The notes under the pieces: model-generated
Seen by the model: only the letters and a program-made list of their open reading frames with translations
What the model was told of the DNA's origin: nothing
Database searches by the model: none
Assembly: GCA_001972305.1 (NCBI GenBank)
Contig: BDDD01002905.1
Span: forward strand, 107,255-171,254
Origin: Cephalotus follicularis
Taxonomy: Eukaryota; Streptophyta; Magnoliopsida; Oxalidales; Cephalotaceae
Length of the DNA: 64,000 nucleotides
Direction: 5' to 3'
Program-made: the position numbers and the translations under genes
In this document: piece after piece, positions 2,477-31,488 of the stretch
Position numbering within the stretch: position 1 is the first letter of the stretch
Layout: every line of letters starts with the position of its first letter

Positions 2477-2629
2477 TGTAATAACCGCAATTTCAATTCA
2501 TGTATTTTGTTACCTACGATGAATAAAATATGCAATTATTGAAATTATATGTTGGGTTATCGCTTGAATAAAAGGAATTTGGAATAAACTTTAAATGAAA
2601 AATAAGGAAACAAATTCTGGGGCTAAACC

Positions 2630-2786
2630 GTCGACGCCTAACTTCACACCGTCGACGCTTTAAGCCCTGACATGTGCACAAAACGCACAGTTGAAGGCTG
2701 AGTCAAGGCGCCAAACCGTCAACCTTTAAACGCCCAGCATCGACATTTAAAGGCGTTAAGCGTCGACGCCCACGATAACCGGCGAC
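2630..2786 (+). repeat. GTCGAC palindrome cluster 1 of S1
   Basis: Six sites related to GCGTCGACGC. Cores start at 2630, 2651, 2718, 2739, 2762 and 2781 (GTCGAC, GTCGAC, GTCAAC, ATCGAC, GTCGAC, GGCGAC). Steps are 21, 67, 21, 23 and 19; the last two add up to 42. Bases between sites are not conserved. The cluster begins about 150 bases from the LTR start, the same place as the CAGTCGACTG cluster in S2. Confidence 0.75.
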
Positions 2787-3725
2787 GCTTTAGACGTGTT
2801 CTGGCGCAAAGAAATGTGTCAGTTGGAATGAAATGGCAGAGTTCAAATGACGGTAACATGGACATGTGTCCATAGTCGTGTTGACCATGCAAAAGAGGTC
2901 TTACCAGCTGTTGATAGTGCCAGACCAAAGGGCTTGCATGTATTCCTTTCACCTGTAATCTGCAAAACACAGTAGAAAAGGTAAGAAAGAACCAAAGAAA
3001 AGAGTGCATGCATGAAGGAGAGAGAAATGTACAATGGAGGAAAGGGAAACTGACAAACTTAAAGACACTAGTTGAACCTTATATCAACTCTGTGAGATTG
3101 AATTTGAGTGTTAGAAAACACTGGGTAATAAGGACAGCATTGGACAGTGGCTGAGATTGCATATAGAAGGGACTTGAAGTCAAAGGCGAAAACTTGGAGC
3201 ATCACCTGGAATTTGTAAGTAATCCGAAATTTCTTGATGTTGTTAGATCGTTAGTAGTGTAATACTCTGATGTTAGCAACCACAGCCACTGTTAACATGA
3301 TTAAGAAGGATAAAGCATGGAAGAGGAGATTGAATGTTTTATTAGTTAGAAGTTAGAAAGTTGAACTTAGAAATTAATGGTAACTTCTGATTAAATTCCT
3401 TGATGTTGTCATAGTTAGATAATTAGCTAATGTACTGGAAGTTGCATCCAAAACCTGCAAAAATACAATTATGTAGATTAATTCTTCAATTTTGGAAGAT
3501 TGAAGGAAGGTGAAGAACTTTGGACTTAGAGAGAGAAATCAATTTGATTTGATTTCGGGACTGCTTTAAAGGTAGGGGATTTTGACATGTTTTTGAATAT
3601 TTAACATGTATAATGTGTAGTGATTGTCAATACTTGATTGCATGTTGAATTGGATTGAGTTTGGGTTGATTTTGTGCATCCCCTGTTTTGAAATTGTTCC
3701 TGGAATTCGTATGAATGCCAGAAGC

Positions 3726-3858
3726 GCCGACGCTTACACAGAAACTGTCGACGCTTTGGTACAAAAATGGCATATTAAGGCTTAGAATGTTGACGCTTAA
3801 GTTGTGTAGTGTAAACGCTTAGTCATTAACCATCTACGCTTACATAGAAACTGTCAAC
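3726..3858 (+). repeat. GTCGAC palindrome cluster 2 of S1
   Basis: Cores start at 3726 (GCCGAC), 3747 (GTCGAC), 3789 (GTTGAC), 3811 (GTAAAC), 3832 (ATCTAC) and 3853 (GTCAAC), mostly followed by GCTT. Steps are 21, 42, 22, 21 and 21. The later sites look like decayed versions of GTCGAC. The cluster lies about 1250-1380 bases from the LTR start, near the second cluster of S2. Confidence 0.72.
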
Positions 3859-4974
3859 GCTTTAGAATAGTAAATGTAGAAATGTGTAAACTGATCGATT
3901 GAATTGTTCGTGGTTGTAATTATTGTTGATCTACTATATTGTAACTATTATTATTGTTATTTAACGAAAATTCTACTGTTATGGATACATATTCAAGGAT
4001 TTTACCAACCTAATGATTTAAGCATAAATAATGATTTTTAATGATTTTCCCTACGAAAATCTTAATGTCATACAGACTGTTATTTTCATCTTAACAGAGG
4101 CACTGATACTGTTTAGTTCTCACAAGAGAACCACTGATTGAACTGTTATGTTTTCAAAAAAAAAAATGAAAACTACTGTAATATTGCATATTATGCTATA
4201 TGTAATATTGTCACTGAATTGAATGAATTGATTGTCTATGCTAGACATCACTGGCTACGGAGGTGGTCCTATGTGCCAGGAGTTGGCTAGAGTATCCACC
4301 CAAACTGTCTGCAATGCAGAACTTGATTGTTAAACTGCCCGCTAATGCCGGTAGTAATTGACCTGATCTATCATCTTCGGAGTGTAGGGTGATAGATAGG
4401 TGCTGCACAGTTGGTGCTAGGAGTTAGTGACATGTGACACCCAAACCACTATACTGATTGATTGTACCCTTGTGCGGTATTCTTGCATTGTACTGTCTAT
4501 GGCCACTTGGCATGATTGCGTATATATTGGAATACTATATATATATATGTCATTTCATTTAACTGTCATGCATATTTACATTTATAGATTCAATTACATG
4601 CTTTATCTTCCTACTTAGCCAAGTGAGGACAACGGCTAACCCCCTACAATTTCAGATTAAGTGACGACATTCGGGGAGTTGTTGCTAAAGCGTGGAAAGC
4701 TTCTTTCTATCGTAAGGTTGTTATTATTATGATGTACTGTATTTGTAACGAACGGTTCACACTCTGTTATTGTTGTACTTTCCTTATGTATAAGGATATT
4801 GTTGGTTTGTACTCGCACGTAGTATGGGCTGTGTGCCGATGACTTATGTTTATAATCCAGATATGAATGCTTCCGCTTATTTATGAAATTTTTAATGAAA
4901 TGCTGGATTATTACTTATTCCTGATATCACTATATATGCTTGTCCCAATCGTAATGGAAGGGCGGGGTGTGACA

Positions 4975-7211
4975 AAAACAAGTCTAAAATCCTAAGAAAG
5001 AGTCATGGATTTATGACTAGAAGTAGATAATGGTAAGGTCCATTATGTATTTTATATATCTTCCAAATCTTTTTCTGTGTAATGCACTGCAGTTGGCAGA
5101 GCATATCCTAATCCGGATTCCTTTGAAATCAGTTCCCTCTGATATCGAGAGGATATCATATGATCAAGGAGATCATAAATGGAGGAAACCCAGCCTAAAC
5201 CGTTTGAGGGTTAAGGTTGTCCAGTTTATATAAGAAGGCAAAAACCTTCTAATCTAGAGGCACGATTGAGACATTGCCGGTTTGTGAAATATTCTAAGAA
5301 GTGCTTAGGATATTACTTCTACCATCCCTGCGAACAAATATGGTTTTGTTTCACGTACTGCAAAATTCCTAGAGAGGAATACCTGATTGCAGGAAGTAGT
5401 GGGGGTTAGGTAAAACAAAGAGAGTTTCCACAAGGTAGAAACCCACAGGATGATAAGAAACTAGAAGTTTATTCTTCTAAATACATAATTGGAAAATGAT
5501 CCCAATGTGAGATAGAGTCTCGGTAAGGCACTCCTCTAGCAAGGAGATCAGGCAAAGGTTTTCGACAATGCCTGAGAAATAAGGTTTTCTCATTAAGGCA
5601 CTGACAAAGCTAACGTCAGAGAGATGACGAGCCTGCCAGCTACAAGGAAGCAGTGCAGAGAACTGATTCCAAGACATGATAAGAGATCATGAAATCTGAA
5701 AATGACTCCATACACGCTTACCAAGTGAGGAACTTGGTATACGCACCCGAAGGCTTAAAATCCTATCATATGCAAGTAAATCTTCAAGAGGAAGATTGGC
5801 GTTAATGGTAAAGGTCAAAACCTTTAAAGCGCAATTGGTCTCGAAAGGATATACACTAAGACAAGAGATCTGTATACTGTGAACTTTTTGACCAGTTGCA
5901 ATGCTTTAGTCCATTCGGATTATGCTTGCTTTTGCCGCTCATTGTGATAATGAGCTATGATAAATGGATGTCAAGACAGTCTGCAAGAGGGACTATCTTG
6001 AATAGGACATCTTTATGTCCCAAACCCGAGGGGTTTACATCCGAGGAGCATTCACACAAGAGGTGCAAGATCCAAAGGTCTATGACCTTAAGCAAGCATC
6101 CCATAGTTGAAATATCCATTTTATTTTTATCAAAGATATGGATAAGCCTAATGTCTACCTGAAACAGGATAACGCCGAAATCACTTTCTTGGCGCTGTAT
6201 GTAGAAGACATACTACACATAGAGAATGATGTAGGTATGTTGAAGTACAGTTAAGCAAGAACTTCTCCACAAAGGATTTGGGAGAGGCTTTCTACGTTTT
6301 AGAGAATGAAGATCTAAAGAGTAGATCGAGTAGATTGCTTGGGCTTTCCCAAAGCCAGTACATCAGCAGAGTGCTGAAATGGTATGGAACGAATTCCATA
6401 TATGGCTTACTGCCAATTAGCCAAGGAATTCACCTTTCCAAGGGGATGTCTTCTAAGACTTATGATGGGAGGACACACATGAATAGACAACCTTATGCTT
6501 CGGCAATAGGCTCCATCATGTATTCCATACTTTGTACTGAGCCTGATGTCAATATGCCTAAGGGTCTGGGTCGTCGATTTCAGTCCAGTGCCTGTAAGAG
6601 AAATAGGGACCTAGTCAAGAGGATATAATGCCTGTGAAAGACTCAGGATTATTTCTTGACACATGGAAAATATAGTAAATTGAGATGCAAGAGTTGGGTT
6701 AACTATAGTTCAATTGTGATCCGGATGATCACAAATTCATTTCAGGATATGTGTTGATCCTGAATGGATGTGCTGTGTGAGTGGGATGAGTTTGTGGTAG
6801 TCGACGACTGCAGAGTTCACCAGAGAATAAAAGTATCTTGCAACCTGTGATACCGGTTATGGTAGCTGGTTTGGCTGCAGATGTTCATTGTGGAACTTTA
6901 TGAGGTTCCTTCCATCGTTGTCCAGTTGTGCAGCATAGGGACGACGATGGGGCTTTGCACAAACCTCAGAACCCGGGTCTCATTATCGCCCAAACATATA
7001 AAGAAACGGTATCATTTGATCATGGAGATCATAGATGAATATAACGTCTCAAAAAAGATGTTATTGAGGAAATATAGGAGACATCATGAGAGTAGAGGTC
7101 ACCATAGAGAGAGTCATGCGAGAAGTGAACTTGGCAGACCCACTGACCAAGGCCATGAGCAGTGCTAGAGTGCGATATGCTTAGGCTGGAGGTCTTCGTG
7201 GATGGAGGGCC
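4975..7211 (+). pseudogene. Broken integrase, reverse transcriptase and RNase H of Copia A
   Basis: Continuation of the Copia A polyprotein after S1. 5030-5233 matches the end of the integrase core (residues KSVPS and RKPSLNRLRV); much of the core before it is missing. 5700-6630 matches reverse transcriptase; the catalytic YVDD box reads YVED (near 6197-6208), so one of the two metal-binding aspartates is changed. The clearest open piece is 6278-6628. 6630-7211 matches RNase H and carries GCTGTGTGAGT at 6772-6782, a 2-base insertion shared with Copia B. Many stops. Not functional. Confidence 0.8.
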
Positions 7212-7222
7212 AAGTGGGAGAT
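7212..7222 (+). promoter_or_regulatory. Polypurine tract of Copia A
   Basis: AAGTGGGAGAT directly before the 3' LTR, the place where plus-strand DNA synthesis is primed. The same sequence lies before the 3' LTR of Copia C. Confidence 0.85.
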
Positions 7223-9638
7223 TGTTAGATTAGGGTGTCCCTGCAAGCCACGATAAGATTGCATAAATATGTTGTTGACATATGACACACTCTTGAATCG
7301 TATATTCTTAGTTCCATTCATGTTTTATTGTGAATTTTAAATAAAAGATTGGCATATGGCCATATGTATTATCCCAAACCGTCTCAATAGATCAGTCGAT
7401 CATCATGTCAACTGAATACATATATAGCGTCCTGTTCATAAAGGGTTGGATATCGTGCCGGAGAGGTTATGAGAATGAGATCCTTACTCCATTGTGACAA
7501 AAGTTCCAAGTCATAGGTTCACTCTCTTAGGGAAATTGATGAACCGCAAAGTCTTGTCGTATTATGCTTGCTCCAAATGGTAAAGGAGGATAAATCATCT
7601 CATTGCCATTTGGGTTTTACCCTACAGCTGATGCGGGGTGCGTGCAGAGGCATGGCACTGAACCGACCCACCATAGGTTATCTATTTGGAGAGTCAACAC
7701 CTCTGTCAATAGAGTTCCTGTTGTCACGGTAGTGCTTAGTCAAATCTGATTTATGTTATATCGTTAGACCTGAGTGACTGGCATGAATTGTATAGTAAAT
7801 GCCTGGCTTTGATTTTCGCATTCCCTAGCACTAGCCATGTGCTGGCAAAAGGGTTGTCTTTGAGCCTTGTGGGAGATACATTGAGATGTATGGGCGAGTT
7901 TGCAAGATGGGATCGTCACAGCCGTGTTGAGGGTTATAGGCTCTATAACATCTATGACCATTGAAGACATAAAATCCTGGCCGGGTACTGGGTGATTGGG
8001 AATAAGAGATTTCCGGGGATATCTGCCATAGTCTCAGTGCGTTTAAAGAATTATAGTTATCGCAGTTTTTCCTAGGGGTGACATTTATCCAAACCCTAGT
8101 TTGCGGTCAGATCTGAGACGACGAAGGATGCGTGGCACGCAAATCGATGACACTAATAAAGTACTGGGGAACCGGTTAATGAATGATAGACATGGTACTT
8201 TTTGGTCCCGCTGATCCGGGGGTTATTATAGATCACACCGAGACTATTAGCTGGATAGTCGTGCCAGAACTTCGAGATGTTCTGGGAAATTTATCATCGT
8301 ACCAGAAATCCACCGGGCTTTCAGGTCCCGCCCGATTATTGGAAAAGTGACGCATGCTATGATTTAATTTTATTAAATCAAAATTAAAGAGAGAGTCCTT
8401 AATTTACAAATGGGAGAAACTTTTTATTTTTTTAAAGAGACTTTAAAATTATAGGGAAGGAGAAAAATAACAGAGAGAGAGAGAGAGAGACTTAATTTTA
8501 TTTAAGTCAAAGTCAAAAAATTAATTTTAAAACTTAATCTCTCTCACACTCCCTCCCACTCTCTCCCGTGTCTTTTTCTTTCTCTCGCAACACCTGGCGT
8601 GCGTTTTAGCCGAGAGAGAGAGAGAGAGAGAGACGCTCCACGCGTCACTGCACAGGGTCGCGTTCTGGCCGAAGGAGAAGCCTATGCTTCGCGCCGGTGG
8701 TCGTGAGAAGGCGAGCGACATTCCCTAGTAAGCCTTCCCCCCTTTCTCTCTCATTTTCTCCTCTCTTTTCCTCCCTGGCAGAAGATGCGTTTTCTGCCAC
8801 CGCTTGCTCCCGACGTCTCTTCCACCGCCGTTGATCATTGTGGGTGGAGCCAAATCGATGGCTTTATCGATCCTTCTTTTACTTTTTCCAGTCATTTTCT
8901 GGTCGTTTTGTGTTTGGTGAGTCAACTGGGAGGGTTGACGCGTCGGGCTACTGTGACTGGGCATTCCGCGCCGAGTCACTACAAGTCTTGGGTTGGGGTG
9001 TGCCAGGATGGTGTCGCTGAGCCGTTTGGTGGCTTGGTGGCCGCTGATGACGAACGGCGAGTTAACCCTGTGACTCACCGCCGACCGTTTTTGGTGTTCC
9101 TGGTCGAGTCTCGACGACCAGTGTTTTTGTCGGGGTGTTGGCATCCACACATGTCGAGGCCTATCAATGACGCATTGACCGGGTCGCACTGAATCCAAAC
9201 TCAGTGCGTTTTCCCGCTCCTTTATCCTATTTTGCCGAGTTCCATGGCGTGTCTTCATCAGAAACGGGTAGAGTATATTTTTCCAAGTCCGGTGATGTCA
9301 AGATCGGACCTAACGTAGACTGTCCAAAAACCGGGACCGGTGACCGGCAGTTGCTACTGGAAGCGCGTAGCGGCAAAGCTGTGGAGCCTCCAACATTTGT
9401 ATGATTGCTTCGCTCTTACCTTTATTGTTACCGGCGTGTGTTCGGTTTATCTTTTTGTGCATGCTTGTTCTTGTTTTAGTTCGATTATTAATTAAACGGA
9501 GATCCTAGGCTTTTCAATTTGGTACTAAGATGTAAGTGTGGGCCATGACTTTCAGTCTTCGTGTGTTTGAAAAATTAAAATTATACAGACTTGCGTCCTA
9601 GGACCAAATCAACAGGAACCCTTGCCAGGTTTCCAACA
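7223..9638 (+). repeat. 3' LTR of Copia A
   Basis: A 2416-base LTR from TGTTAGATTA to TTCCAACA, matching the two LTRs of Copia B. The first half is AT-rich. It contains GA tracts near 8470 and 8611 and a GC-rich part at about 8640-9400. Open frames occur in the GC-rich part on both strands (8725-9258 minus, 8785-9192 plus) but do not match the frames in Copia B, so I do not call them genes. The element's target duplication cannot be checked because the 5' LTR is outside. Confidence 0.88.
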
Positions 9639-10544
9639 CAACTTCAATGCTTAATGCCAATGCTTTCGACGCTTATTGTCAAATTTTGCCTGGATATGTC
9701 TTTCTCAACTTGCATATAACACTTTGCATTTCAACTTTGTCAACTAGCACATAAACTGAAACTAATTAGATGCAAATATGTTATCATCAAATTTTAGGAC
9801 TGATACAAAAATGTCAACACTCGGGAATGCATGGTCTGGCATGCTTGGGGACTCATGGTCTGGCATGTTTGGGGACTCATGGTCTTGCTTTGCTGGTCTG
9901 GTAATGCTCGGATGACTCATGGTCTTGAAATGCTCGGATGACTCATGGTTTGACACTTCTCGGGTGACTCATGGTCTGGCATTGCTCGAGCGACTCATGG
10001 TCTTACAATGCTCAGACTAGTCATGGTCTGGCACTGCTCGGACGACTTATGGTCTGGCACTGCTCTAAGTACCTTTCAAGCACTAAGCTTTTACTATGAT
10101 TCCAGTACATATCTACGGTACAGAAACAACCAAAAATCCAAAGCTAACAAACACACACAATTCACAGTAATTCAAACATCACACAAATCAACACAAACAA
10201 TCAACATAACAAAACAAATAACACACACCCACATGCTGGTAGGCGCTCGAGCACATAGTAACCTATCTAAAATTGGTTGAAAACGGAGATCCCCTAGATC
10301 CTCGCTTAGATTTTGGACCTCCTTCCGATAAAGCCAACGCTGCGCACTTCGGACTTCTCTTCGCTTCCTTGCTCTTCACTACTCCCTTAGCTCCAGGAGA
10401 TGGGAATTTATGCAGGGGTGTAAGAGACATTGAACTCTCCTGAAAAGTTCCACCTTTTGTCTCCTTCCATCACTTTCCCGTGACACCCGGCCCCATCATC
10501 CACATTCTCTCTTTTCTCTAGATTCTTCTAAAACCAGGGGGGGT
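9639..10544 (-). other. LTR-like fragment between Copia A and Copia C, possibly part of the G3 3' LTR
   Basis: No coding sequence. It lies between two copia insertions. The piece at 35933-36174, on the other side of Copia C, is the start of the minus-strand G3 3' LTR and carries a TATA-like TTATAAGG. If C inserted into that LTR, this fragment would be the rest of it. It holds a 24-26-base tandem array at 9820-10066 and one GCGTCGA-like site near 9667. The link to G3 is inference; no second copy of this LTR exists in the window. Confidence 0.4.
9820..10066. repeat. Minisatellite, about nine units of 24-26 bases
   Basis: Tandem units built around GACTCATGGTCTGGCA followed by TGCTCGG. Units differ by a few bases and by one or two in length. 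Copies are best kept between 9900 and 10065. There is no similar array elsewhere in the window. Confidence 0.85.
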
Positions 10545-11768
10545 TGTTTGATTAGGGGTGTCCCTGTATGGAACGATATGGCTTGTTTGTATATAGACAC
10601 TCTTGATTTATATATTGGAAAGGCTATATGGCTCATCCCAACCAACCAAAAGGAACAGACTAATTATACGTAATTAAATGTATGCCATAATAGTGTCCTG
10701 TCATGTTCAAAGGGTTGGATCTCTTGCCTAGAGGGCTATGAGAATCAGATCCTTATTCCCTGTGACAAATGTTTCTAGTCATAGGTTCAGTTTCTTAAGG
10801 GCCATTGTTGAACCGTGAAGACTTGTCACATGAAGCTTGCTATCTCATAGTGAATTGGGGTAATCCCTAAAGCTGAATGTGAGGTGTATGCTAAATAGGA
10901 AACATATTTTGATATTCTATACCCAATGTCAATAGGATTCCTATGGTCTCGGTTGTGTATACTTTATGGTAACTAGTAGGTCTATAGCATGCGTTGCCTC
11001 TATTGACTTGAGCGGCTGGCATGCATTGTGTGGTGACTACTTGACTTTGATTTTTGCCTTCCCCAATACTAGCCAGGTGCTGGTAAAAGTGTTGTCTTTG
11101 GGTCTTGTGGGAGCTGTATTGAGATGTATGGGTGAGTGAACAAGATGGGATCGTCACACCCAGGCAGAGGGTCACCGGCTCTATTTCTCTATGTACGTTG
11201 CAGACTTAAAAGTATTGATCAAGCATAGTTGGACAGGGAAAGGGAGCTTCCCATGGGAGGTCTACCGATAGTCTTAGTGCAATCATAGATTCATAGCTAT
11301 CACAGCAATACTATGGGTGACATTCATCCAAACCCTAGGCTGTGATCGGAGCCATGTATGACGAGGGAAACGTGACACATATGCCGATGACTGGATAAAG
11401 CGAATGGCTTTTCAGACCGTGATTGATAGACGTGGTAATATAAGAATCCGGGGGGTGACTGTCACTCACACCAGGGGTGCTCTGATAGTCGGTGTACTAT
11501 TAGAGTGCTCATACCAAATGACGGGTTGCATTGGGAATTTATCATCATACCGGAGAATGACACGATTTCGGGTCCTGCCTGACTTTGAACAGGTTGATAT
11601 GTGGTTGGACACATATCATTTAGTGAAAGGACAACATCAGGAAATATGTTGTTGTGCTAGTGAGTATTTCATTTGCATGGATTTAGGTCCATGCAATGCC
11701 ACGATGAAATGTTCCATGCGAAGGCTTATTTGGAAATAGAAGAGATTGTCATATTCTTTTCCTTGGGC

Positions 11769-12108
11769 ATCGACTCCTTGGTTGGGTGTTGACGCCAACG
11801 TCTAGTTGGGCTGCTGGCCGTTGTCATGAAGGGATTGCATTAACACTGGAAAAACCATTAGGTTTACACGTCAATGCCAAGAGGGTATCACGTTGATGTC
11901 TAAACTAGAAAGTCCTCTGGGCGTTGATGCTATGGAGAGCATTGCGTTAACAATGGAAAAACCAGGGACTTTCCATGTTGACGCCATGGGGTTTTTGTGT
12001 TGACGTGAAGAAAAATGACACTATGCACAAGTCTCATATTATCTCTGGCGTTGACGCCATTTTATAATGTGAGACGCGTACACGTCGATGCCTTGCGTAC
12101 ACGTTGAC
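11769..12108 (+). repeat. GTTGACGCC-type site cluster in U3 of the Copia C 5' LTR
   Basis: Thirteen sites related to GCGTCGACGCC. Cores start at 11769, 11788, 11820, 11839, 11870, 11892, 11923, 11946, 11977, 11999, 12050, 12084 and 12103. Steps are 19, 32, 19, 31, 22, 31, 23, 31, 22, 51, 34 and 19, so pairs about 20 apart repeat about every 52 bases. Most cores read GTTGAC rather than GTCGAC. Further sites lie near 12228 and 12250 after the TATA box. Confidence 0.75.
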
Positions 12109-12133
12109 GCCAAGAGGAGAGAGAAAGTCAGCA

Positions 12134-12143
12134 CTATAAATAG
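12134..12143 (+). promoter_or_regulatory. TATA box of the Copia C 5' LTR
   Basis: CTATAAATAG, also present in the 3' LTR at 35138. A pyrimidine-rich stretch starts about 30 bases later, as expected for the RNA start (R region). Confidence 0.75.
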
Positions 12144-12953: not shown

Positions 12954-12965
12954 TGGTATCAGAGC
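12954..12965 (+). promoter_or_regulatory. Primer binding site of Copia C
   Basis: TGGTATCAGAGC two bases after the LTR end. It is complementary to the 3' end of plant initiator tRNA-Met, the usual primer for minus-strand synthesis in copia elements. Confidence 0.92.
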
Positions 12966-14294: not shown

Positions 14295-14474
14295 ATGTCT
14301 GTTGGCTTAGCACTACCACGCGTACTTGAAACAAATAAGCTTACGGGACCAAATTTCTTGGACTGGCAGCGCAATATGCACTTGGTGCTCACAAGCATGA
14401 AGCTTGCTCATGTCATGAATGAGAGCCCCCCTAGACTGGGAGCACCCTCGTCGGAAGAGCAAAAGGCCACGAGG
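14295..14474 (+). pseudogene. Copia C gag, first 60 codons, cut by G1
   Basis: Start of the capsid gene. The ATG at 14295 follows the leader and begins MSVGLALP; the segment contains residues KLTGPNFLDW, a typical copia gag start (UBN2/DUF4219-like region). The frame is open up to the G1 insertion at 14475 and resumes at 27184. Removing G1 plus one copy of CGAGG (12709 bases) keeps the frame. Disabled by the insertion. Confidence 0.88.
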
Positions 14475-16726
14475 TGTAACGCCCCCGACCCGAGCACGCT
14501 AATAGCTCAAAGCGAGCTCCGAGGATTAATCGCGTTACGTTGGGTGTGAAACGTTACATCCTTTGGTACACTTCTCTAAAAGTACATAACATCATAAATT
14601 TCATGTCTTGCAACATAATACATAATCTTAAATTTATACTTTACACATAATCATCTGATATATAGATGTCATAACCATATCATTGATCTACATTTACACA
14701 GGATCATCCTTCTACATAAACATATAATACAGCGGAAAAACTTTATTCTTATTACATATCAAAACATTAATGCAAACATCATTGCATAGCCTTTCTTTCA
14801 CAAAAACTCCTTCTTAAGAGCTTCCTCTAAGCTCGTAATCTCCATTCATTCATTTCCTCATTTTATTTGAAAACAACATTGAAAGGAATGAGCTCAAAAT
14901 AGCTCAGTAAGGTGTTTTTATAATAAACACATTTCATCATAACATTTTTCTAGTCAATACATATAACTAGAACATTTCGTAAAGCATATCACTTTTCTAA
15001 TTACAAACTCGTAACTAGAACATTTCATAAACATAGAAGTCATAAAAACCTTGATGAACCCTTTACACCGCTTCACCGGGGCATTGTGCACTCCCCGACT
15101 ACTATCCTTACATCACATGCATGTCCGTGAGCATCTTGCTCCATTCCCCTTGGATCACAATCCAAGGGAGGTTCATTCATCATTTACTTTGAGTAATAAG
15201 CTCAAAGCAATCATAAAAATCATTTCATAACATTTCTTTCACAATTCATAAATCTTTCTCTTCATTTGAGTTATTGACTCAAATGAGTTCATAAAATAGT
15301 TTTGCATAGCTTTACTAAAACTGATAATTCATATAGAAATGAGAATTTTCAGAGAAAACTTAAAACATAAACATTAAAGTAGACCTATTTAAGAATTCAT
15401 AAAGCTCAAGATCATGACAATTGGTTGAGAATTGAATCCATTATGAATTTTTGAAAGTTGCTGGTTCCATAAGAAAACAGGGCATGAGTAGTAAAATCAA
15501 TCATTGATATTCATCAAGAATTTGACATAATTTAGAGATACATAAAACATTACAGTTAAAGAGGACATCCTAAGGTTTTCAAAACATCCAACCAATTAAT
15601 TTTTTATCAAGAAACGAGCAAGATATGATTTAAACAAGTTACTGCATACTCTAGAAATAAAACAGTACCCAAATAGCAATTTAAAACATGAATTTTCATC
15701 AAGAAAACGATAGAATCTTGAAACGTGAAAATCATAACAGTTGAAGAGGACATCCTAACGTTTCCAGAACATTCAACCATTAAAACATTCGTCAATAATT
15801 GAGCAAGATATCAATAAAACAATCTGCTATAAAATTGGAACCAAAACAGGGGATACTTTGTAGAAAATGGGTATAGAATTTTCTTACTTTGCTTTAAAAT
15901 TTCTTGCTCTTTTGCTCTCCCACGAATTCTCCACTTCACTCTTAGCAGGAGCACTTTCTTTGTCAGCCAAAATTACTGATTTCAACCCTCTTTGCCATTA
16001 AATAGAAGGATTACTTGGGAGGCAAGTCTTTTCCCCTTCTCACACAACTCAACTCTCTCTCTTGGCAGTCCATCTGCTCAAATTCAACCAATCCAAGTGA
16101 TGACACTTGTTAGATCACCTGATAACATCTCATATCATCCTCCCCTAGCCTGCCACGTGTCCAAAATTAAAGATTTTTACTCACAAAATGCCAAAAAGTC
16201 AGATTTTTCATTTTGTCTGTAGCTCAAAGCGTCGACGTTTTCTCCCTAAGCGTCTCCGGTCACGAGCTTGACCTGAGTTCTCCACTTCTATCCCGACTAA
16301 AGCGCTGACGCTTTCTTACAAAGCGTCGCCGTTTTAAGCCTTCATCCAGTTCAATTGATACACTTGACTTCAACGCGTCGACGTTTAAAATGAGAGCGTC
16401 ATGCATTGCCCAAAGCGTCGACTATTTTAATAAAACCGTCGACGCTTTAGACATCTTTGACAACTCTTAACCCTTTAGATTGATGCTTTCAACATGACAT
16501 TCATCCAAAACAAATAGCCAATTTCAATTTTCTTCCAGGGGTGCTTCCCCCCAGCCCCTGCCTGCTGACCGGGTAGCAGGACCCCCCGTCTGCTAACCGG
16601 GGATGGGAACCCCCGAACCCCCCGAGCGTAGGGTCATACTATGGGTCCCTTGAACTATTTGCCAATTTGCACAATAGCAACCATTTTCCATAATTAATAT
16701 CTTACATGGAAATTTGGGTCATTACA
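14475..16726 (-). repeat. 3' LTR of G1
   Basis: A 2252-base LTR with ends TGTAACGCCC and GTCATTACA as read on the plus strand. It contains about 100 bases near 16485-16600, with a G/C-rich stretch, that are deleted from the 5' LTR. Open frames are short; none is supported. Confidence 0.94.
16231..16443 (-). repeat. GTCGAC palindrome cluster in the G1 3' LTR
   Basis: Sites like AAGCGTCGACG with cores at 16231, 16252, 16304, 16325, 16377, 16398, 16417 and 16438. Steps are 21, 52, 21, 52, 21, 19 and 21. It lies about 280-500 bases into the LTR as read on the minus strand. The matching cluster of the 5' LTR is at 26791-27003. Confidence 0.8.
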
Positions 16727-16739
16727 ATCTACCCACCTT
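16727..16739 (-). promoter_or_regulatory. Polypurine tract of G1
   Basis: Minus-strand AAGGTGGGTAGAT directly before the 3' LTR; primes plus-strand synthesis. Confidence 0.82.
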
Positions 16740-19569: not shown

Positions 19570-19587
19570 ACCCGGTAAATCTTCAGC

Positions 19588-21186: not shown

Positions 21187-21237
21187 CTAGTTAGCATCTG
21201 TAGGTTAGTTCTTAATCTTAAGCAATTCTACTCATAT

Positions 21238-24200
21238 TGTAACACCCCCAATTCGGAACCAGGATCACTCTCGATTCAGGATCGGTGTGTCACACAAAAC
21301 AGAGCTAAAAACATATCAAAGTTCTTAATCTTAATCATCATCAATACGTGGTGGTTCTAAAAATATGAAAATATGTATAATCATGGAACAAAAACTGAAT
21401 CTGAAACATAATCTGAAAACTTTATCATAAACCAAAATGTCATATTCCAAAAATCACGATACTGTTTAGATAACTGGCCTATACACGACCATAACACTAC
21501 TAAAAACATAACCGGATCAAACTCCTAGATGATCCTCTGACATAGGGTAACTCTCTCATCACACTTGCCCATGCTGTCCCTGAAAACTTGCCGCATGGAA
21601 AAACAAAACGCGGCTGAGCAAACCTCAGTACAGATATAGAATCATAAAACAATTTACTAACAGTTTATGAAACAAATCAATTACGAAACAACATAAATAC
21701 GAATCAAAACGGAAACGAATCGAAGCAGAACGAAACAAAACCCTATCTGAAACAATGCAGTTTACCAAAATGAAACGGTATCCGAAACAAAACAATATCA
21801 TGCTCAATACAGTATCTGAAACTAACACGATGCGATACAAAACATTTTACGAAACGAAACACTCTACGAAACAGAATAGAACAATTTACAGAACAAAAGA
21901 ATACAGTTTTTGAACAGTACGTAACAACCAAATTACGGAACAAAACAAAACAAATAGTAAATGATAACGATAATTTAAAAGCAGTAAGATTTCAAAGTTA
22001 ACTCAAAACAGAAATCTTAAGCAATAAATTAGTTTAAACATTCTTTGAAGTCACATATGAACTTTCATAAAAACCAAATCCATAACTTTCAAAACGTATG
22101 ACAAACCTTTCAAAACATAAGTTCCATACTGAGCCACATATCACATATTAGAACACATATAGCAAGGGAGTAGCTAATTCCACATGCCAAGTAGAATTGA
22201 AGTGTACGGCACTACACATATCAATTCTCATAACATATCATATCATATCACATATCATATACTAGAATTGATTCATACGCCTCTATCACGTAGAGGATCC
22301 ATAAATCCACCTCATGGGATTTATTCATAACATTCAGAGACGTCGTAGACTAATCACACCGCTACGGAAGTGTCATGTCCCTGTGCCAGGCCTACGACAT
22401 GCCTATGGTACGCCCCATAGGTGGGTACAATACTCAGTATTTTCACCGTTTCGAAAACATTGATTTATCAAAATCACTTTAAAAACACATAGATATGCTT
22501 TCACAAAACATATTTGCAAACCGTTCACCAACGATATCATAATATACATTTCGTAGTCAAAACACCAACTCATTTATTTTCCGTTATAAAGAGATGATCA
22601 TTTCATAACGTATCATAGCATAAGAATAATAAAGTCGAGAACATTCAAATTTCATAAAATGTCAAAAACCGACTTTATTTTCGAAATATATGGAAACCAT
22701 AAAACACAACCGAGTTCATAAACCGAAAGAACATAGCATAAAAACAAAGCTGATTTCCGTTCGATAAAATCAGATAGCCAAAGAGTGATAGTGTTCGTAC
22801 ATATCCATTAGGCAATAAAACAGGTTTATTCAATCAAAACCGATCGATGATAACCAAGAAAGGGGATCCATACCAAATACAGAATCTGAAATTATCTCAA
22901 ATAAAATCAGAAAGATAGCAAAGAAAGAAGGACATCCGTACTTCATTTACTAAAACAAAACCGAATTTATCTCAACAATACCGAAAGAGATATCAAGGAA
23001 AGAGAATCCGTGCTTTATTCATAAAAGTAAAATTAACTTTTTACTCTAATAAAAACAATAGGAGGGTATCAAGGAACGAAACATCCGTACTTTAATCATA
23101 AAAGTGAAACGAGATAATTCCAATAAAATTAGATAGCCAAAGAGCGAAAAATCCGTACCTCATGCAATCACCAAAATAACCTCAAGAATATAAATCGAGA
23201 CTTTTCTAAACCGCTCCTCGGTTGTTGCAAATATCTAATAGAAATAAAATCGTTCTCATAAGGACTTGAAATAAGATCAAACCTCAACTCATGGGTCAAT
23301 GTACACTGATCATGACCATATAAGATAGTAATAGGTTTAATACATCCAATTCGCAGAAGTCTCATCTAAACATATTTTCGAATTCACTAAGGTAACTCCA
23401 ATTTGTCCAATTCATCCACTTTCGAATCATAATACTAGTTCAGCTCATAATATCGTAAAACGATTACATAAATACATAATTCAACCGAAAACAGAATTTA
23501 ACGGAGTAGGGTTCAGAGTTTACCGAAATTAGTCAGAACGGAGCACAGAGCCATAATCACATCGCGGAACTGGAACGGATCACACCTATGCGGAGAACGG
23601 AGTCAGAAACTATAAAAAACGTGTCATCGGAGACAGCCGCGCGTGGGCTCACGCGCTGCTGCTGGGCGGCGTGTGTCTGTCACGCGTCGCCGGTTAGACG
23701 CTGAAAAGGGCTGATCTGAATCGATTGAGGCCGGGGGTCACATATCCAGGGCGCGTTTGCCACAACGCCGTCGCATTTGGCCGGAACAGAGGCATTTGAC
23801 CACGGTTGACTTTGCACCGATCTGCTTTTTTGGCGTCGCCAAGGGTCGAGGCTGGTCGGGTTTGCTTCCTCTCGACGCCAGGATGCCGATTATGTGGTTA
23901 TCTTGTCGTGACGACCACCAGAGACAGAGCTATGGCGTTCGACAGTGGCGGGGAGAGAAGACGTCGTCCACGCCAATTGGGCCGTTGGCCAGCGTGGGGG
24001 TAGGGTCTGGTGGACTCGGGAGCTCGTAGGGGTTCGACCGGTGCCTTCGTCGGTGCCATATCGGTACCGACGCCGGTGACAGTGGCTGAAGGAGAGAGAG
24101 AGGGAGAGAGGGTGGTGGGAGAGAAAGAGAGAGTGTGGGAGAGAAAGCAAATTTTATTATAAAATAGGGTTTTTAAAATTTTTAAATGCTGAAATTAGTT

Positions 24201-24392
24201 TTAACACATAAATAAAAAGCCAAAAATTATTTTATTTATTCATGGACTTAATATCAAAACCCACAAGGCTAAGGCCAAAACCCGCTTAGCCTAGCCAAAA
24301 GCAGGCAGTCCACAAACCGAAATAAAATAAACAGCCCAAACGAAACAGATCAAAAAGCCCAAAAATTCTATACGAAAAAATAGGATATTACA
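21238..24392 (-). mobile_element. Solo LTR G2 (same family as G4 and E)
   Basis: A 3155-base LTR with ends TGTAACACCC and GGATATTACA as read on the plus strand, flanked by perfect CATAT duplications (21233-21237 and 24393-24397). It lies in the G1 leader between the small coiled-coil frame and gag. The stretch at 22330-22440 is the reverse complement of G4 at 53895-54000, so it belongs to the G4 LTR family in minus orientation. It has a GC-rich part at 23640-24070 and purine tracts near 24090-24140. It lacks a GTCGAC cluster. Confidence 0.93.
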
Positions 24393-24546
24393 CATATGCT
24401 AGGTAAAGCAGTTAAATTCTAATGCTCAAGATCATACAAAGAACTAACAGCTTTATTTATCTTATAAACCTTTATACATCTCCTACACTTCCTTTCACAC
24501 TTATGTCACATATAAACATTTTTACAAAACCTTTCTTATCGTTACC

Positions 24547-24933
24547 CTAGTCTTCATCACTAGGGATATCATCGTCAGGCAGCTCCTGCTGAATCCGCCT
24601 TATCATCATTCGAAGGTTCTCTTTCACACCAGTCATCACATTGTCATTAAGTCCCCAAATATATCTCATAAGTACCCTAAGGCCAGATTTAATCTCTCTG
24701 AGGATTTTGTCTTTCCTTTCTAACTCTTCATGGTACTCTGCCTCCATCTGGTAAATGTGTGTATAGAATTGCTCTCTATTATTTGCCACCATTTGTCTTA
24801 ACTCTTCCTTTTCTTCACGTAATTGTTGGTTTTCAGCTATCAGGGTTGGTACTCGCCAGTGTACCATTTCGGATAACCCGCAACGGGAGAATCCTGTACT
24901 AGAATTGGAGTTGGATTCGCTCGTTGATGACAT
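24547..24933 (-). CDS. Coiled-coil leader protein of G1, unknown function
   Basis: An open frame of 128 codons from ATG 24933 to TAG 24547. It starts only 57 bases after the primer site and, without G2, ends about 200 bases before gag, so it is the first frame on the element RNA. Residues 1-16 are serine-rich. Residues 31-75 are very rich in E, Q, K, R and L with heptad-like spacing (LIAENQQLREEKEELRQMVA), pointing to a dimeric coiled coil. The C-terminus is acidic (PDDDIPSDED). It has no stop, whereas gag-pol has many. No known catalytic motif is visible. Role unknown; a part in RNA or Gag handling is a guess. It could also be open by chance, though the length and composition argue otherwise. 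Confidence 0.65.
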   Translation of the reverse strand: MSSTSESNSNSSTGFSRCGLSEMVHWRVPTLIAENQQLREEKEELRQMVANNREQFYTHIYQMEAEYHEELERKDKILREIKSGLRVLMRYIWGLNDNVMTGVKENLRMMIRRIQQELPDDDIPSDED

Positions 24934-24990
24934 CTGAAAAATAGGTTAGCAAATACACAAATCATATCCTCGACATGTATCACAATTATC

Positions 24991-25002
24991 TCTCTGATAC
25001 CA
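24991..25002 (-). promoter_or_regulatory. Primer binding site of G1
   Basis: Minus-strand TGGTATCAGAGA four bases after the 5' LTR. It differs at the last base from the Copia C site and pairs with tRNA-Met type primers. Confidence 0.88.
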
Positions 25003-25006
25003 TTCT

Positions 25007-27178
25007 TGTAACGCCCCTGACCTGAGCTCGCTAATAGCTCGAAGCGAGCTCCGAGGATCAGTCGTGTTACGTTGGGTGTGAAATGTTACATCCTTTGGTA
25101 CTCTTCTCTAAAAGTACATAACATCAGAAATTTCATGTCTTGCAACATAATACATAATCTTAAATTCATACTTTACACATAATCATCTTATATAAAGATG
25201 TCATAACCATATCGTTCGTCTACATTTACATAGGATCATCCTTCTACATAAACATATAATACAGCGGAAAAACTATATTCTTATTACATATCAAAACATT
25301 AATGTAAACATCATTGCATAGCCTTTTTTTCACAAAAACTCCTTCTTAAGAGCTTCCTCTAAGCTCGTAATCTCCATTCATTCATTTTCTAATAACATTT
25401 TATTTGAAAAAAACATTGAAAGGAATGAGCTCAAAAAAGCTCAGTAAGGTGTTTTTATAATAAACACATTTCATCATAACATTTTTATTGTCAATACATA
25501 TAACTAGAACATTTCGTAAAGCATTTCACTTTTCTAATTAAAAACTCGTAACTAGAACATTTCATAAACATAGAAGTCATAAAAACCTTAATGAACCCTT
25601 TACACCGCTTCACCGGGGCATTGTGCACTCCCCGACTACTATCCTTACATCATATGCATGTCCGTGAGCATCTCGCTCCATTAACATTGAGCATCTCGCT
25701 CCATTCCCCTTGGATCACAATCCAAGGGCAGTTCATTCATCATTTACTTTGAGTGATCAGCTCAAAGCAATCATAAAAATCATTTCATAACATTTCTTTC
25801 ACAATTCATAAACCTTTCTCTTCATTTGAGTTATTGACTCAAATGAGTTCATAAAATAGTTTTGCATAGCTTTACTAAAACTTATAATTCATATAGAAAT
25901 AAGCATTTGCAGAGAAAACTTAAAACATACATATTAAAGTAGACCTCTTTAAGAATTTATAAGGCTCAAGATCATGACAATTGGTTGAGAATTGAATCCG
26001 TTATGAATTTTTGAAAGTGGCTGGCTCCATAACAAAACAGGGCATAAGCAGTAAAATGAATCATTGATTCTCTTCAAGAATTTGACATAATTTCGAGATA
26101 CATAAAGCATAACAGTTAAAGAGAACATCGTAAGGTTTTCAAAACATCCAACTATTTAATTTTTCATCAAGAAACGAGCAAGATATCATTTAAAGAATTT
26201 GCTACATAATCAAGAAATAAAACAGTACCCAAACAGCATTTTAAAACATGAATTTTCATCAAGAAAACGATATAATCTTGAAACCTGCAAAGCATAAAAG
26301 TTGAAGATGACATCCTAACGTTTCCATAACATTCAACCATTCAAATATTCATGAACAAATGAGCAAGATATCAACAAAATAATCTGCTATAAAATTGGAA
26401 GCAAAACAGGGGATAGTTTGTAGAAAATGGGTATAGAATTTCCTTACTTTGCTTTAAAATTTCTTTCTCTTTTGCTCTCCCACGAATTCTCCACTTCACT
26501 CTTAGCAGGATCACTTTCTTTCTTAGCCAAAATGACTGAGTTCAACCCTCTTTGCAATTAAATTGAAGGATTACTTACGAGGCAAGTCTTCTCCTATTCT
26601 CACACAACTCAACTCTCTCTCTTGGCAGCCCATGTGCTCAAATTCAACCAATCCAAGTGATGACACTTGTTAGATCACATGATAACATCTCATATCATCC
26701 TCCCCTGGCCTGCCACATGTCCAAAATTAAAGATTTTTAGTCACAAAATCCCAAAAAGTCAGATTTTGCATTTTGTCTGTAGCTCAAAGCGTCGACGTTT
26801 TCTCCCTAAGCGTCGCCGGTCACGGGCTTGACCTGAGTTCTCCACTTCTATCCTGACTAAAGAGTTGACACTTTCTTACAAAGCGTCACTGGTTTAAGTC
26901 TTCATCTAGGTCAACTGACACACTTGACTTCAGCGCGTTGACGTTTACAATTAAAGCGTCGTCCGTTGCCCAAAGCGTCGACTCTTTTAATAAAACTGCG
27001 GCGCTTCAGACATCTTTGTCAACTCTTAACCCTTTAGATTGACGCTCACCGGGGAGCGGAACCCCCAAACCCCCAGAGCACAGGGTCATACTACGGGTCC
27101 CTTGAACTAGTTGCCAATTTACACAATAGCAACCATTTTCCATAATTAATATCTTACATGAAAATTTTGGTCATTACA
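25007..27178 (-). repeat. 5' LTR of G1
   Basis: A 2172-base LTR matching 14475-16726. It has a short duplication of GAGCATCTCGCTCCATT near 25665-25705 and lacks about 100 bases near 27045 present in the other LTR. Confidence 0.94.
26791..27003 (-). repeat. GTCGAC palindrome cluster in the G1 5' LTR
   Basis: Counterpart of the cluster at 16231-16443, with the same spacing: cores at 26791, 26812, 26864, 26885, 26937, 26958, 26977 and 26998. GTCGAC at 16377 is GTTGAC at 26937, a C-to-T change at the CpG. Confidence 0.8.
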
Positions 27179-27183
27179 CGAGG

Positions 27184-27797
27184 GCCAAATGGTTAGATGA
27201 GGACGAGCAGGCTCGTTGTTTAGTGATTTTGGGTATGGTCCCGGAATTACAAAGACAACATAAGAAGCTTGATACCCTAGGAGCCATACTTCTCCGTCTT
27301 CGGGAGTAGTATGGATCCCAGTCGAGGACCGAAAGGTTTAACTTGTCCCATCAACTCTTTTGCACAAAGATGGTCGAGAAATCTTCAGTCGACGCACATG
27401 CATTGAAGTTGATAGATCTTGTTGAGCAGATGGCTCAATTAGATCTTACCATGGACAATGACTTCTACATTGACCTGGTTTTATCATCCCTCCCTAGGTC
27501 ATACTCCCAGTTCATCACAAATTTCCACATGAACAAGGTGGATACTATTCTGCCTAAACTTGTGGAAATGCTTCGTACACCGAAGTAGACATGGGCCACG
27601 GTAGGTCTAATTCTGATGTGATGCTTCTCCCATCTACTTCTTGCAAGACAACTCTGAGAGGGAGCGGATCGAGAAGATCCAAGTCCAAGGGCAAGGCACC
27701 CATGAAACCTAAAGGGAAGAAGAAGAACAAAGGGAGACGACCACCTGCGCCGGTGGGGCCAGTTGTTGGGGGATCAGTTCCAGATATGATTCGATAG
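27184..27797 (+). pseudogene. Copia C gag, C-terminal part
   Basis: Continues the capsid gene from 14474. An in-frame TAG lies at 27307-27309. The frame is then open to 27588 (residues LVEQMAQLDLTMDNDFYIDL and SLPRSYSQF, typical copia gag), where a -1 shift moves the reading to 27591-27797. That part is basic (residues RSKSKGKAPMKPKGKKKNKG), as expected near the nucleic-acid-binding end. Confidence 0.9.
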
Positions 27798-28349
27798 TTG
27801 CAGGATGATGACTGCTACTTCTATTATTGAAAGCATGGGCATTGGAGATCACAGTGCAGTGAGTTCCAAAAGTCGAAATCTGGAGGTGCCTCAGGGTCAA
27901 GTACTTTCATGATTGAGCTCTTTCTAGCTACCAATGTTAGTTCAACTTGGGTTTTGGATTCGGGTTGTGGTACTAACATTTGTAACTCTTTGCAGGGGCT
28001 AAGAGGAGCTAGACAGTTGAGAGAGGCTGAAGCATTGGACTTGCGTCTAGGTGATGGATCGAGGATTCACACCACGACAATATGCATTTTTGAATTGTCT
28101 TTTTGTAATGGCCATGTAATTAAACTTGATCCTTGTTATTTTGTAAAGGACTTGGCTAGAAACGTTGTTTTTGCTTCTTATTTGTATATGATGGGCATGG
28201 AGCTCACTTTTTCTACATATGGCTGTAGACTTTTACAAAAGGAGGTTCTTTCATGTGAGGGACACATTTACAATGGGATCTATGTTTTAAATACTAATGC
28301 ACAAATGGCTTTAACAATTCAAACAGGAACAAGCACTAAAAGACAATGA
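27798..28349 (+). pseudogene. Copia C zinc knuckle and protease
   Basis: A degraded CCHC knuckle starts near 27813 (C, then Y in place of the second cysteine, a stop, then GHWRSQC). The aspartic protease follows with the active site LDSGCGTNIC near 27955-27985 and the downstream hydrophobic strand. The frame is open from 27909 to 28349. The protease frees the other domains. Confidence 0.85.
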
Positions 28350-28379
28350 GAGATAAGTGATGTAAACCCTTCATACATA

Positions 28380-28919
28380 TGACAATGTAGATTAGGTCAT
28401 CCTAGTCTGGGTAGACTAACACGCTTGGTTAAGGATGGTCTTTTAGACATCCAGGACGTGGAGTCCTTTCTAGAGTGTGAGCCATGTCTTATTGGCAAGA
28501 TGACCAAATCACCATTCTCCGGGGTAAGAGAAAGGACTGTGGACATACTGGCTCTTGCCCACACCGATGTCTGTGGACCTATGTCGGTCAATGCTAGTGG
28601 AGGTTTTCCCTACTTCATCACCTTTACCGATGACTTATCACGATATGGTTATGTGTTTCTGATGAAACACAAGTCTGAGGCCTTTGAGAGGTTCAAAGAA
28701 TTCAGACTAGAAGTAGAAAAGCAAATGGGTAAACCCATTAAGGTCCACTGGTCAGATCGGGGTGGTGAATACCTATTTGCTGAATTCCTAGGTTATCTTA
28801 GGGATAACAGAATTCTCTCTCAATTGATACCTCCTGGAACGCCATAGCATAATGGTGTTTCTGAGCGGAGGAATCGGACTTTGACGAACATGGTCCGATC
28901 CATGATGTCTTTCGCGGAT
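28380..28919 (+). pseudogene. Copia C integrase, core, cut by S2
   Basis: The pre-integrase zinc region (RLGHPS, then CEPCLIGKM) is followed by the catalytic core. The three catalytic residues are visible: D in HTDVCGP, D in SDRGGEY, and E in GVSERRN exactly 36 residues after the second D. A TAG lies near 28846 where the family normally has glutamine. The frame is otherwise open to the S2 insertion at 28920 and resumes at 31489. Confidence 0.9.
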
Positions 28920-30209
28920 TGTCACACCCCGCCCTCCGTTATAGACAACATATGTGGTGATATCAGAAATAACATAAATCCAGCATTCAACATTTAACAA
29001 ATTCAATTACATAAGCGGAAGCATTCCTTTGTCGGATTATAAAAACATCCGCACGCAGCCCATACTACGTGCTTATACAGTACCAATTAAAATTATTCTT
29101 TTACATACTGGAAACGTAAAGATAACAGCAATGGGGTATGATCGTTCAATTCAACATAAAATATAGTAAAAATAGTAACCTTAACAAAATAGAAGCTCTC
29201 CAAAAGTTTCAGCAGCACTTTCCAAACGTCTTCGCTTAATCTGAAATTGTAGGGGGTTAGTCATTGTCCTCACTTGGCTACGTAGGAATAAAGCAAGATA
29301 AAGAATATATAAATGTAACATGCATGTCAGTTATCTGAAATAACATATATATAAGTATTTCAATATATATAAGCAACCATGCCAAGTGGCCATAGACAAT
29401 ACAATTCAGGAATACCGCACAAGGGTAAAATCAATCAATACAGTGGTTTGGGTGTCAGATGTCGCTAACTCCTAGCACCAACTGTGCACCACCTAACTAT
29501 CACCCTACTCTCCGAAGATGATGGATCAGGTCAATTCTGCCGGCAAATAGCGGGCAAGTAACAATCAGGATCTGCATTACAGATAAGTGTGGTGGGAGCT
29601 CTAGCCAACTCCTGGCACATAGGACCACCCCGTAGCCAGTGATGTCTCCTATCACTCGACCAACGACAATAAGAATAGACAAACAATGCAATCAATTCAA
29701 TAGAAATATTACATAAGTTTATGATATGCAATATAAAGTTGTTTTCTTTTGAAACATTTAACAGTTCAGTGACCGCACCTGTCGTTGGAGGAAACGGTAC
29801 TCAGTACAGTAAGGGTGCCTTTCATTGGAGGAAAATCAGTAATCATTTTGACAATACGTATTCATTTTGGAATAATAAGGAAAACGGTATTTGTGCTTAT
29901 AGCACTAGTGGGTTCAATCATAATATTAAGTGTAACAACAGTAGCTACAAACACTTAACAAGTATACAACATGTGTAACAACATCAATAAACAGCAGCGG
30001 AACAATCACATTTCAAAGGTTCAACAAGATATTAGTATACCCTAGTCGTTCTTGCACAAACTATCACAATGAGTGCATAAGTCTATACTTTCTGTAATAT
30101 AACTACCTAAGGCCCGAATTGACTGTTACAATCACCCATTTTGGAGGCCAGGGTAATTACACAAAATTATAAGCCTAACAGCATCTAATCTTAGCATTTT
30201 ATCACCTAA

Positions 30210-30325
30210 CAGTCGGCTGTTCATAAGAATAGTCGGCTGTTTTAATTAGGTAGTCGACTGTTTGTCCTTAAGAGTCTACTGGTTACATTGAGTAGTCGAC
30301 TGTTGGGGTTAAACAGTCGACTGTT
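30210..30325 (-). repeat. CAGTCGACTG cluster with 21-base step in S2 (six sites)
   Basis: Cores start at 30212, 30232, 30253, 30274, 30295 and 30316 (GTCGGC, GTCGGC, GTCGAC, GTCTAC, GTCGAC, GTCGAC). Steps are 20, 21, 21, 21 and 21. The 10-11 bases between sites differ from unit to unit. It lies about 1160-1275 bases into the LTR on the minus strand. Confidence 0.88.
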
Positions 30326-31226
30326 CTTGCCCAGAAACGCCAGGCAGTAGTTTAATAAAACAGAGTATGCACTACTCACAATCCAATTTAAATCAATCCA
30401 TAACATGCAATCAGACAGAAAACATCCAGGCATGATATACATGTTATATCTTCTAAAACATGTGAAAATCCCTACATCAAATTGCTATCCCAAAATCAAT
30501 CGGATTGATTCTTCTCTTGTGTTCAACTCTTTACACCAACTTCCAATTTCCCGTAATTTATTCTACTTGCATGTAAACAGTAGGTGTAAACATTAAAATC
30601 AGTAGGTTTATGAGGTGTTTAATCATGACAACAACACGTGAGGTCGAATCAGTAGCTTACCAATGAAAAACTAAGCTATAACTCACTTTGTACACTCCAA
30701 CCTCAACATGCAAAATTCTAGAAATCTAATCCAAGAGCTGGATGTTAACAGCAGCTATATGCATGCATTTATGCCTACCTAGAACTTGTATATCTAATCA
30801 TCAGTAACATAAGTCGAGCTAAGATCTTACCAGATGATTGAGCTCCACTTTCCCCTTTGAAAACTCTCTACATCAACTTGCCAACAGCAACTGTCTAATG
30901 CGTTTCCTTCTCTCTCAAGTGTTTCCAACACTCCTTTCCATTCCTCAGTAGCTGATATAAGGGTTTCAAGTCTTAGAACTCGTCAGATTCCATTAATTCA
31001 GCCTTCCCTCCTTTTCCTTCTCTCTCTCACATGCACCTCTCCTCACTCTTTTCTCTTCTATTTTTGTAGGTTACAGGTCTGCAAGTCTACAAAAGGAATA
31101 GAGGCATGCAAGGCATCACCCTTGCATGTTGTTACAGCTGGTGGCATGCATACGACACCTGTCCATTGCATGCCATGCTTCTGCCATGTTTCACATGCCA
31201 TGCATAGACACTTGTCTGTGCCAGAC

Positions 31227-31334
31227 TAGTCGGCTGTTTTCCTGTGACAGTCGACTGTCCTTACTTAACCCAACTAGTCGATTGTTGCCCTGCGACAGTG
31301 GGATGTTCTTCCATGAACCAGGCAGTCGGCTGTA
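31227..31334 (-). repeat. CAGTCGACTG cluster with alternating step in S2 (five sites)
   Basis: Cores start at 31229, 31250, 31277, 31298 and 31325. Steps are 21, 27, 21 and 27. It lies about 150-255 bases into the LTR on the minus strand, matching cluster 1 of S1. Confidence 0.82.
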
Positions 31335-31488
31335 GGTGGCTGATTTTGGGTTATTAAGTTTATTCCCTCAATTAAATTTACAACCACAAGTCATATAACA
31401 ATTGGATATTAACATTCAATGTAAGTGCATATTTTATTCATCAAGAAGTACAATATACATGAATTGAAATTGTGGTTGTTACACGGAT

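Follow-up and report, generated by a model that had tools for sequence, protein, structure and literature searches.

A 64,000-nucleotide stretch of the Cephalotus follicularis genome (contig BDDD01002905.1, positions 107,255 to 171,254; hereafter the window) contains two related solo long terminal repeats (LTRs) of retrotransposons, S1 and S2, which carry arrays of short GTCGAC-centered words at the same two collinear places, the word being of one type in S1 (GCGTCGACGC, hereafter GCG) and of another in S2 (CAGTCGACTG, hereafter CAG). Our analysis covered this one window, in which we found eight word-bearing LTRs, four of them making up two LTR pairs (EC3/EC5 and C1/C2). On balance we favor a reading in which the words are putative binding-site arrays for sequence-specific DNA-binding proteins and act as a control module of the element, with related elements switching word when the protein that reads it changes.

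S1 (positions 2477..4974, plus strand, 2498 bp) and S2 (28920..31483, minus strand, 2564 bp) both run from TG to CA; S1 is flanked by AAAGC and AAAAC, alike at four of five bases, and S2, which is nested in a copia element (Cop1), by an exact 5-bp target duplication, CGGAT. A word scan placed the GCG-type words of S1 at 2628..2788 and 3724..3860 (plus strand; sense offsets 152-312 and 1248-1384) and the CAG-type words of S2 at 31227..31332 and 30210..30323 (minus strand; sense offsets 152-257 and 1161-1274), those of the second S2 cluster being spaced by 20-21 bp. When we classified the sites in a word-blind manner (a match to the core of at least 5/6, the class being set by the arms, in cluster ranges set by hand after the words had been seen), 9/10 sites in S1 were GCG-type, with one tie, and 10/10 in S2 were CAG-type. 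A preliminary description of this DNA had given these positions and claimed a single word for both clusters of each LTR, and on both points it was borne out; it had also called the sites palindromes, which holds for some of them, but only a minority are perfect (GCGTCGACGC itself is found five times and CAGTCGACTG four times in the whole window) and the arms of the GCG word are unequally kept.

Outside S1 and S2, GCG-type words form two clusters (51477..51625 and 50642..50864, minus strand; 13/13 sites) in L3, an LTR that lies between the RT/RNase H and protease open reading frames (ORFs) of a gypsy element (49356..51753, minus strand; bounds approximate, no target duplication seen). They also occur in both LTRs of the gypsy element E_C, i.e., the 3' LTR EC3 (14475..16726, minus strand; words at 16229-16445, 5/5 sites) and the 5' LTR EC5 (25007..27178, minus strand; words at 26789-26984, 6/7 sites), which share the target duplication CGAGG, and in both LTRs of Cop1, i.e., the 5' LTR C1 (10538..12951, plus strand, start approximate, primer-binding site at 12954; words from 11767, 8/9 sites) and the 3' LTR C2 (33630..35932, plus strand, bounds approximate; words from 34707, 8/9 sites with one tie). 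CAG-type words make up the single cluster (53259..53414, plus strand; 8/8 sites, with one 20-bp step and then six of 21 bp) of L4, the 5' LTR of a gypsy element (52101..54823, plus strand; primer-binding site at 54829). Over the eight LTRs, 67/69 classified sites (71 sites, with the 2 ties dropped) carry the word that prevails in their LTR, EC5 and C1 each holding one of the two off-class sites; this agreement was reached in 0/20,000 label shuffles, which treat the sites as independent, as those of LTR pairs are not. The clusters of all three LTRs that have two (S1, S2 and L3) are concordant in word (3/3).

Lenient BLAST aligned S1 and S2 over three collinear segments (S1 1-62 at 86% identity, 475-1276 at 61% and 1427-2498 at 73%), and 100-column windows reached up to 92% from S1 1906; a likeness confined to the ends was thereby ruled out. 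The shared ends that had been described are thus real but are not all that is shared, and the collinear homology agrees with a common origin of S1 and S2, though not with the single family that had been assumed. The 80-80-80 rule places LTRs in one family at 80% or more identity over 80% of their length; the values for S1 and S2 (86% over 62 bp, 61% over ~800 bp and 73% over ~1070 bp) lie below this, and from these identities we regard the two as sister families and not as one close family. Under global alignment, identity is only 44-67% across much of the 5' half, and the stretch between the clusters falls within this range. A ~420-bp block in the 3' part (S1 4206-4626 and S2 29264-29708) is mostly 78-92% identical in the same alignment, and outside it most windows range from 44 to 67%, except at the two ends (72% and 76-83%); the block reflects either strong constraint or recent exchange.

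Word type is thus at odds with relatedness in S1 and S2. The GCG and CAG words differ by four transversions. Methyl-CpG decay therefore does not convert either word into the other, and we ruled it out as the origin of the CAG word. Independent mutation had been thought unlikely to bring the same new word to every site; however, since S1 and S2 are not a tight family, there has been ample time for turnover. Word type and relatedness conflict more loosely in L3 and L4. By BLAST, L3 and L4 are related in their 3' halves (62% over 964 columns), as are L4 and L5 (73% over 676 columns), the latter an LTR nested in E_C (21288..24392, minus strand; bounds approximate, no target duplication seen), and despite this kinship L3 carries GCG words, L4 CAG words and L5 no array. 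The 5' halves of these three LTRs are mostly unalignable, and L3 and L4 therefore lend weaker support to a word change than S1 and S2 do.

The GCG word is common to gypsy and copia LTRs that, apart from the clusters, resemble one another little or not at all. Comparison of S1, L3 and the E_C LTRs by BLAST at E 1e-3 gave short matches only; almost all of these fall at the clusters, and one of 99 columns, between L3 and EC3, falls elsewhere. C1 and C2 were outside this comparison; for neither of them did the all-against-all search list a match of 60 bp or longer to any gypsy LTR. A word type held in common by otherwise little-related LTRs would also be expected if modular cassettes recombined between LTR families, by template switching in reverse transcription or by gene conversion, and S1 and S2 simply received different ones with no reader involved. 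The S1 and S2 arrays do occupy, or border, the two segments that BLAST leaves unaligned (S1 63-474 and 1277-1426), the clusters of S2 and L4 begin at near-equal offsets (1161 and 1159, with a weak match at E 1.5e-4), and the unaligned 5' half of L3 and L4 is as a large exchange would leave it. We nevertheless hold this explanation to be unlikely, as S1 and S2 would need two separate exchanges involving the same word, with the middle segment kept. Cassette exchange had been raised in the preliminary description, and it is the single exchange that is disfavored here, as the ~800 bp between the clusters still align (61%, E 1.5e-35, although merely 44-67% in the global alignment), with two separate exchanges being possible. 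In addition, the two words that open cluster 2 pair up in the local alignment (S1 1248/1269 with S2 1161/1182) and their flanks are kept, a weak point given that the global alignment shifts these words by one unit and leaves the unit-to-unit match between S1 and S2 uncertain, and BLAST found no long spacer match between families.

A chance origin of the words was ruled out by their counts and by a ranking of hexamer pairs: with at most one mismatch, GCGTCGACGC occurs 24 times in the window vs. 0.26 expected and CAGTCGACTG 12 times vs. 1.10 expected, GTCGAC occurs 35 times and the next CG-centered palindrome 14 times, and GTCGAC together with word-overlapping hexamers holds ranks 1-7 for pairs at 19-22 bp when hexamers of three or more distinct letters are compared. 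The sites are phased; 30 of the 49 adjacent gaps of up to 60 bp measure 19-22 bp, 19 of them exactly 21 bp, and the pooled distances have a period peak at 10.6 bp (R 0.54, against a 99% null maximum of 0.26 that assumes independent uniform distances, which word-site distances are not). Simple recent tandem duplication was ruled out, the spacers of exact 21-bp neighbors being merely 26-45% identical on average in the five LTRs having two or more of these spacers (a range given with no shuffle control), and the 45% of S2 being owed partly to a kept AA flank. The consensus of the 33 sites in the gypsy GCG arrays is AANCGTCGACGCTTT, in which AA...TT flanks add to the symmetry. The arms themselves are kept unequally: in the GCG word (copia sites included) the right GC is intact in 41/48 sites and the left in 18/48, the better-kept arm being the sense right in 6/6 GCG LTRs, so that all of these arrays point the same way. 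The left CA is kept in 10/10 S2 sites, where the right arm varies, and in L4 the right TG is kept in 7/8 and the left arm is CA or TA, i.e., the CAG word varies at opposite ends in the two LTRs, as a DNA site permits. After insertion the words were no better kept than their surroundings; between EC3 and EC5 they are identical at 35/40 bases (one of five words was gapped and dropped) compared with 93% across the LTR and 89% in the cluster region; the C1 and C2 words are identical at 55/70 bases (one of eight dropped), compared with 89% and 88%, respectively. This gives only a hint that any selection on the words acts in active lineages, the words being few and CpG-rich.

Self-complementary words might alternatively act in RNA, by forming hairpins or by pairing between 5' leader and 3' U3, with a role in packaging, dimerization or siRNA production, and the agreement between two clusters would then follow directly, since every copy within an element would have to match the others. 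In most of the nine cases the cluster indeed has a more stable fold than its shuffles (z from -0.8 to -8.4 in sense and from -2.1 to -10.0 in antisense), and palindromic regions of maize Sireviruses are reportedly linked to siRNAs. However, any array of self-complementary words folds, the antisense strand has the lower z in 8/9 clusters (raw folding energy is lower in sense in EC3, EC5 and L4), the S2 variants T4 to C and G10 to A (sense) break the sense pairing, and a 10.6-bp period is a property of DNA; we give this explanation little credence.

Returning to arrays read by DNA-binding proteins, the two-turn spacing, the symmetric arms and the keeping of the words amid variable spacers would fit the look of sites for dimeric or cooperative proteins. 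The reader would recognize a GTCGAC-centered site, with the two-base arms (GC/GC or CA/TG) giving specificity, and sites spaced by about two helical turns would place several proteins on the same face of the LTR. First clusters lie at sense offsets 129-500 in S1, S2, L3 and the E_C LTRs and later ones at 890-1384 in S1, S2, L3 and L4, and S1 (at 604) and S2 (at 525) both retain a TATA-like CTTATATCA between their clusters; if this is the TATA box, cluster 1 would be ~270-450 bp upstream of it and cluster 2 ~640 bp downstream. The arrays would thus be upstream of the likely promoter, with a second cluster further in for S1, S2 and L3, and would most likely serve the element as an enhancer or anti-silencing module. 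Upon a change of reader, sites with the new word would accumulate and old ones decay in both clusters, which we propose would change together because both serve the same reader.

We consider a host factor a likelier reader than an element-encoded one, because the GCG word crosses the gypsy/copia divide and no extra gene was recognized in E_C. Domain scans of the nine sense ORFs of at least 80 residues in E_C matched gag-pol domains in six, none in the two before the gag match, and gave one match below the curated cut-off; no reader gene was recognized among them. S1, S2 and L3 consist of an LTR only, two ORFs of the L4 element were scanned, one of them antisense, and a protein search with the ORF spanning the L4 array returned no match. 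One named case of a host factor would be stress factors of the DREB/CBF type, the core site of which is CCGAC: GCCGAC is present on one strand in 7/18 CAG-type sites, a change running opposite to C-to-T decay. Such changes were seen in merely 3/70 loosely matched GCG-type sites, however, C-to-T decay could yield GTCGAC if GCCGAC were ancestral, and AP2 factors, which bind as monomers, would need no symmetric arms. A plant LTR study does, in its available portion, tie DREB1D sites to LTRs, and a DREB/CBF reader is possible for the CAG word only; as an account of the arrays we think it very improbable.

Several points weigh against protein-read arrays as we propose them. Concerted replacement driven by a reader, one of the two mechanisms first suggested for S1 and S2, gains from the phasing, from the symmetric AA/TT flanks and from the words being kept while spacers vary, but no reader protein was found and the evidence is from sequence only. 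The GCG arrays all point in the sense direction with the left arm so often lost, making a monomeric or directional reader possible, and a cluster 2 downstream of the TATA-like site is unusual for a plain enhancer; S1 and S2 both have further TATA-like sites, which makes the promoter positions guesses. The data set is eight LTRs, including the two pairs, from one window with hand-set cluster ranges, and L5 has no array though it is related to L4. Going further, we raise as possible, if rather doubtful, that a shared dictionary of GTCGAC-centered phased words across superfamilies serves a few readers as addresses, and that lineages have switched address more than once, both clusters as a unit, to follow or escape a reader. 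A search of viral contigs for the exact 21-spaced patterns found two stretches for one pattern and none for the other, these stretches having two and three GTCGAC sites and no longer array, and no relatives were confirmed in viral contigs.

By comparison with the literature, the closest known feature is the palindromic motif of Sireviruses, and the closest mechanism is that of the VANDAL elements and their VANC proteins. In the available text of a study of Sirevirus (Ty1/copia) LTRs, each element has at least eight copies of a palindromic repeated motif, most of which cluster upstream of the TATA box in the upper LTR half; the words differ by element, one word can recur in low-homology elements, GTCGAC forms the core of the grape word CGGTCGACCG, and the motif is called Sirevirus-specific within the Ty1/copia set (PMC2829016). 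As far as that text goes, the arrays in the window are alike in having many palindrome-type copies, here often imperfect, clustered in the upper LTR half, and in sharing the core of the grape word. They differ in that the CGG-CCG signature is absent, the GTCGAC core having GC or CA/TG arms instead, in their presence in Ty3/gypsy as well as copia LTRs within one genome, and in that they are phased at 21 bp, have a second cluster and, in S1 and S2, change word at collinear places. E_C, having gypsy-type domains, is not a Sirevirus; S1 and S2 have no coding part. VANDALs, in the portions of two papers available, have arrays of short motifs in non-coding regions that are read by element-encoded VANC proteins and differ between relatives, with the unrelated element AT9TSD1 carrying the VANC6 motif (PMC5735166, PMC10398659); the term "palindrom" is absent from PMC5735166. 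The likeness to S1 and S2 is in arrays of short motifs that differ between related elements, and the difference, on the same portions, is that VANDALs encode their reader, whereas no reader gene was recognized in the window. Tnt1, Tto1 and ONSEN are cases of tandem cis boxes in plant retrotransposon LTRs. Such boxes form arrays of two or three according to the available text of PMC2829016. They are similarly short repeats read by DNA-binding factors, the counterpart in the window being a putative reader, but the gypsy clusters here have 4 to 8 classified sites each, in up to two clusters, and are common to several families. A literature search (titles and abstract openings) gave no report of GTCGAC arrays in gypsy LTRs among the matches listed.

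The finding is thus of a known kind, to which it adds the presence in gypsy LTRs, the phasing and the change of word at collinear places. Should it be borne out by genome-wide data, palindromic LTR arrays, reported as a Sirevirus feature among Ty1/copia elements, would extend to Ty3/gypsy elements, word switches between sister families would be ready-made pairs for finding the reader, and these could test the coevolution of LTR control regions with trans-acting proteins.

The window holds nested LTR retrotransposons, with both gypsy and copia domains matched in domain scans. Cop1 is interrupted twice, by E_C (target duplication CGAGG) and by S2 (CGGAT), E_C is in turn interrupted by L5, and S1 sits inside a second copia element related to Cop1. 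The domain matches of E_C are of gypsy type (gag, RVP_2, RVT_1, RNase H, integrase and a Tf2-1-like SH3); it is likely a chromovirus, and no chromodomain was among the matches listed for it. For one E_C ORF the nine best of 56 protein matches listed were all to Cephalotus follicularis (65-89% identity). S2 is rich in ATGCAT and GCATGC (5 and 4 sites vs. 1.3 and 0.6 expected), which we take to be RY-like sites. C2 contains a 51-bp tandem repeat of 2.7 copies (34935-35071), the unit of which includes a GCG-like word, GCATTGACGC, and a 26/78-bp tandem array (9894-10065) lies between the copia elements. Finally, a match to the plant snoRNA snoR71 (63748-63854, plus strand) overlaps a minus-strand ORF carrying a retrotransposon gag domain.

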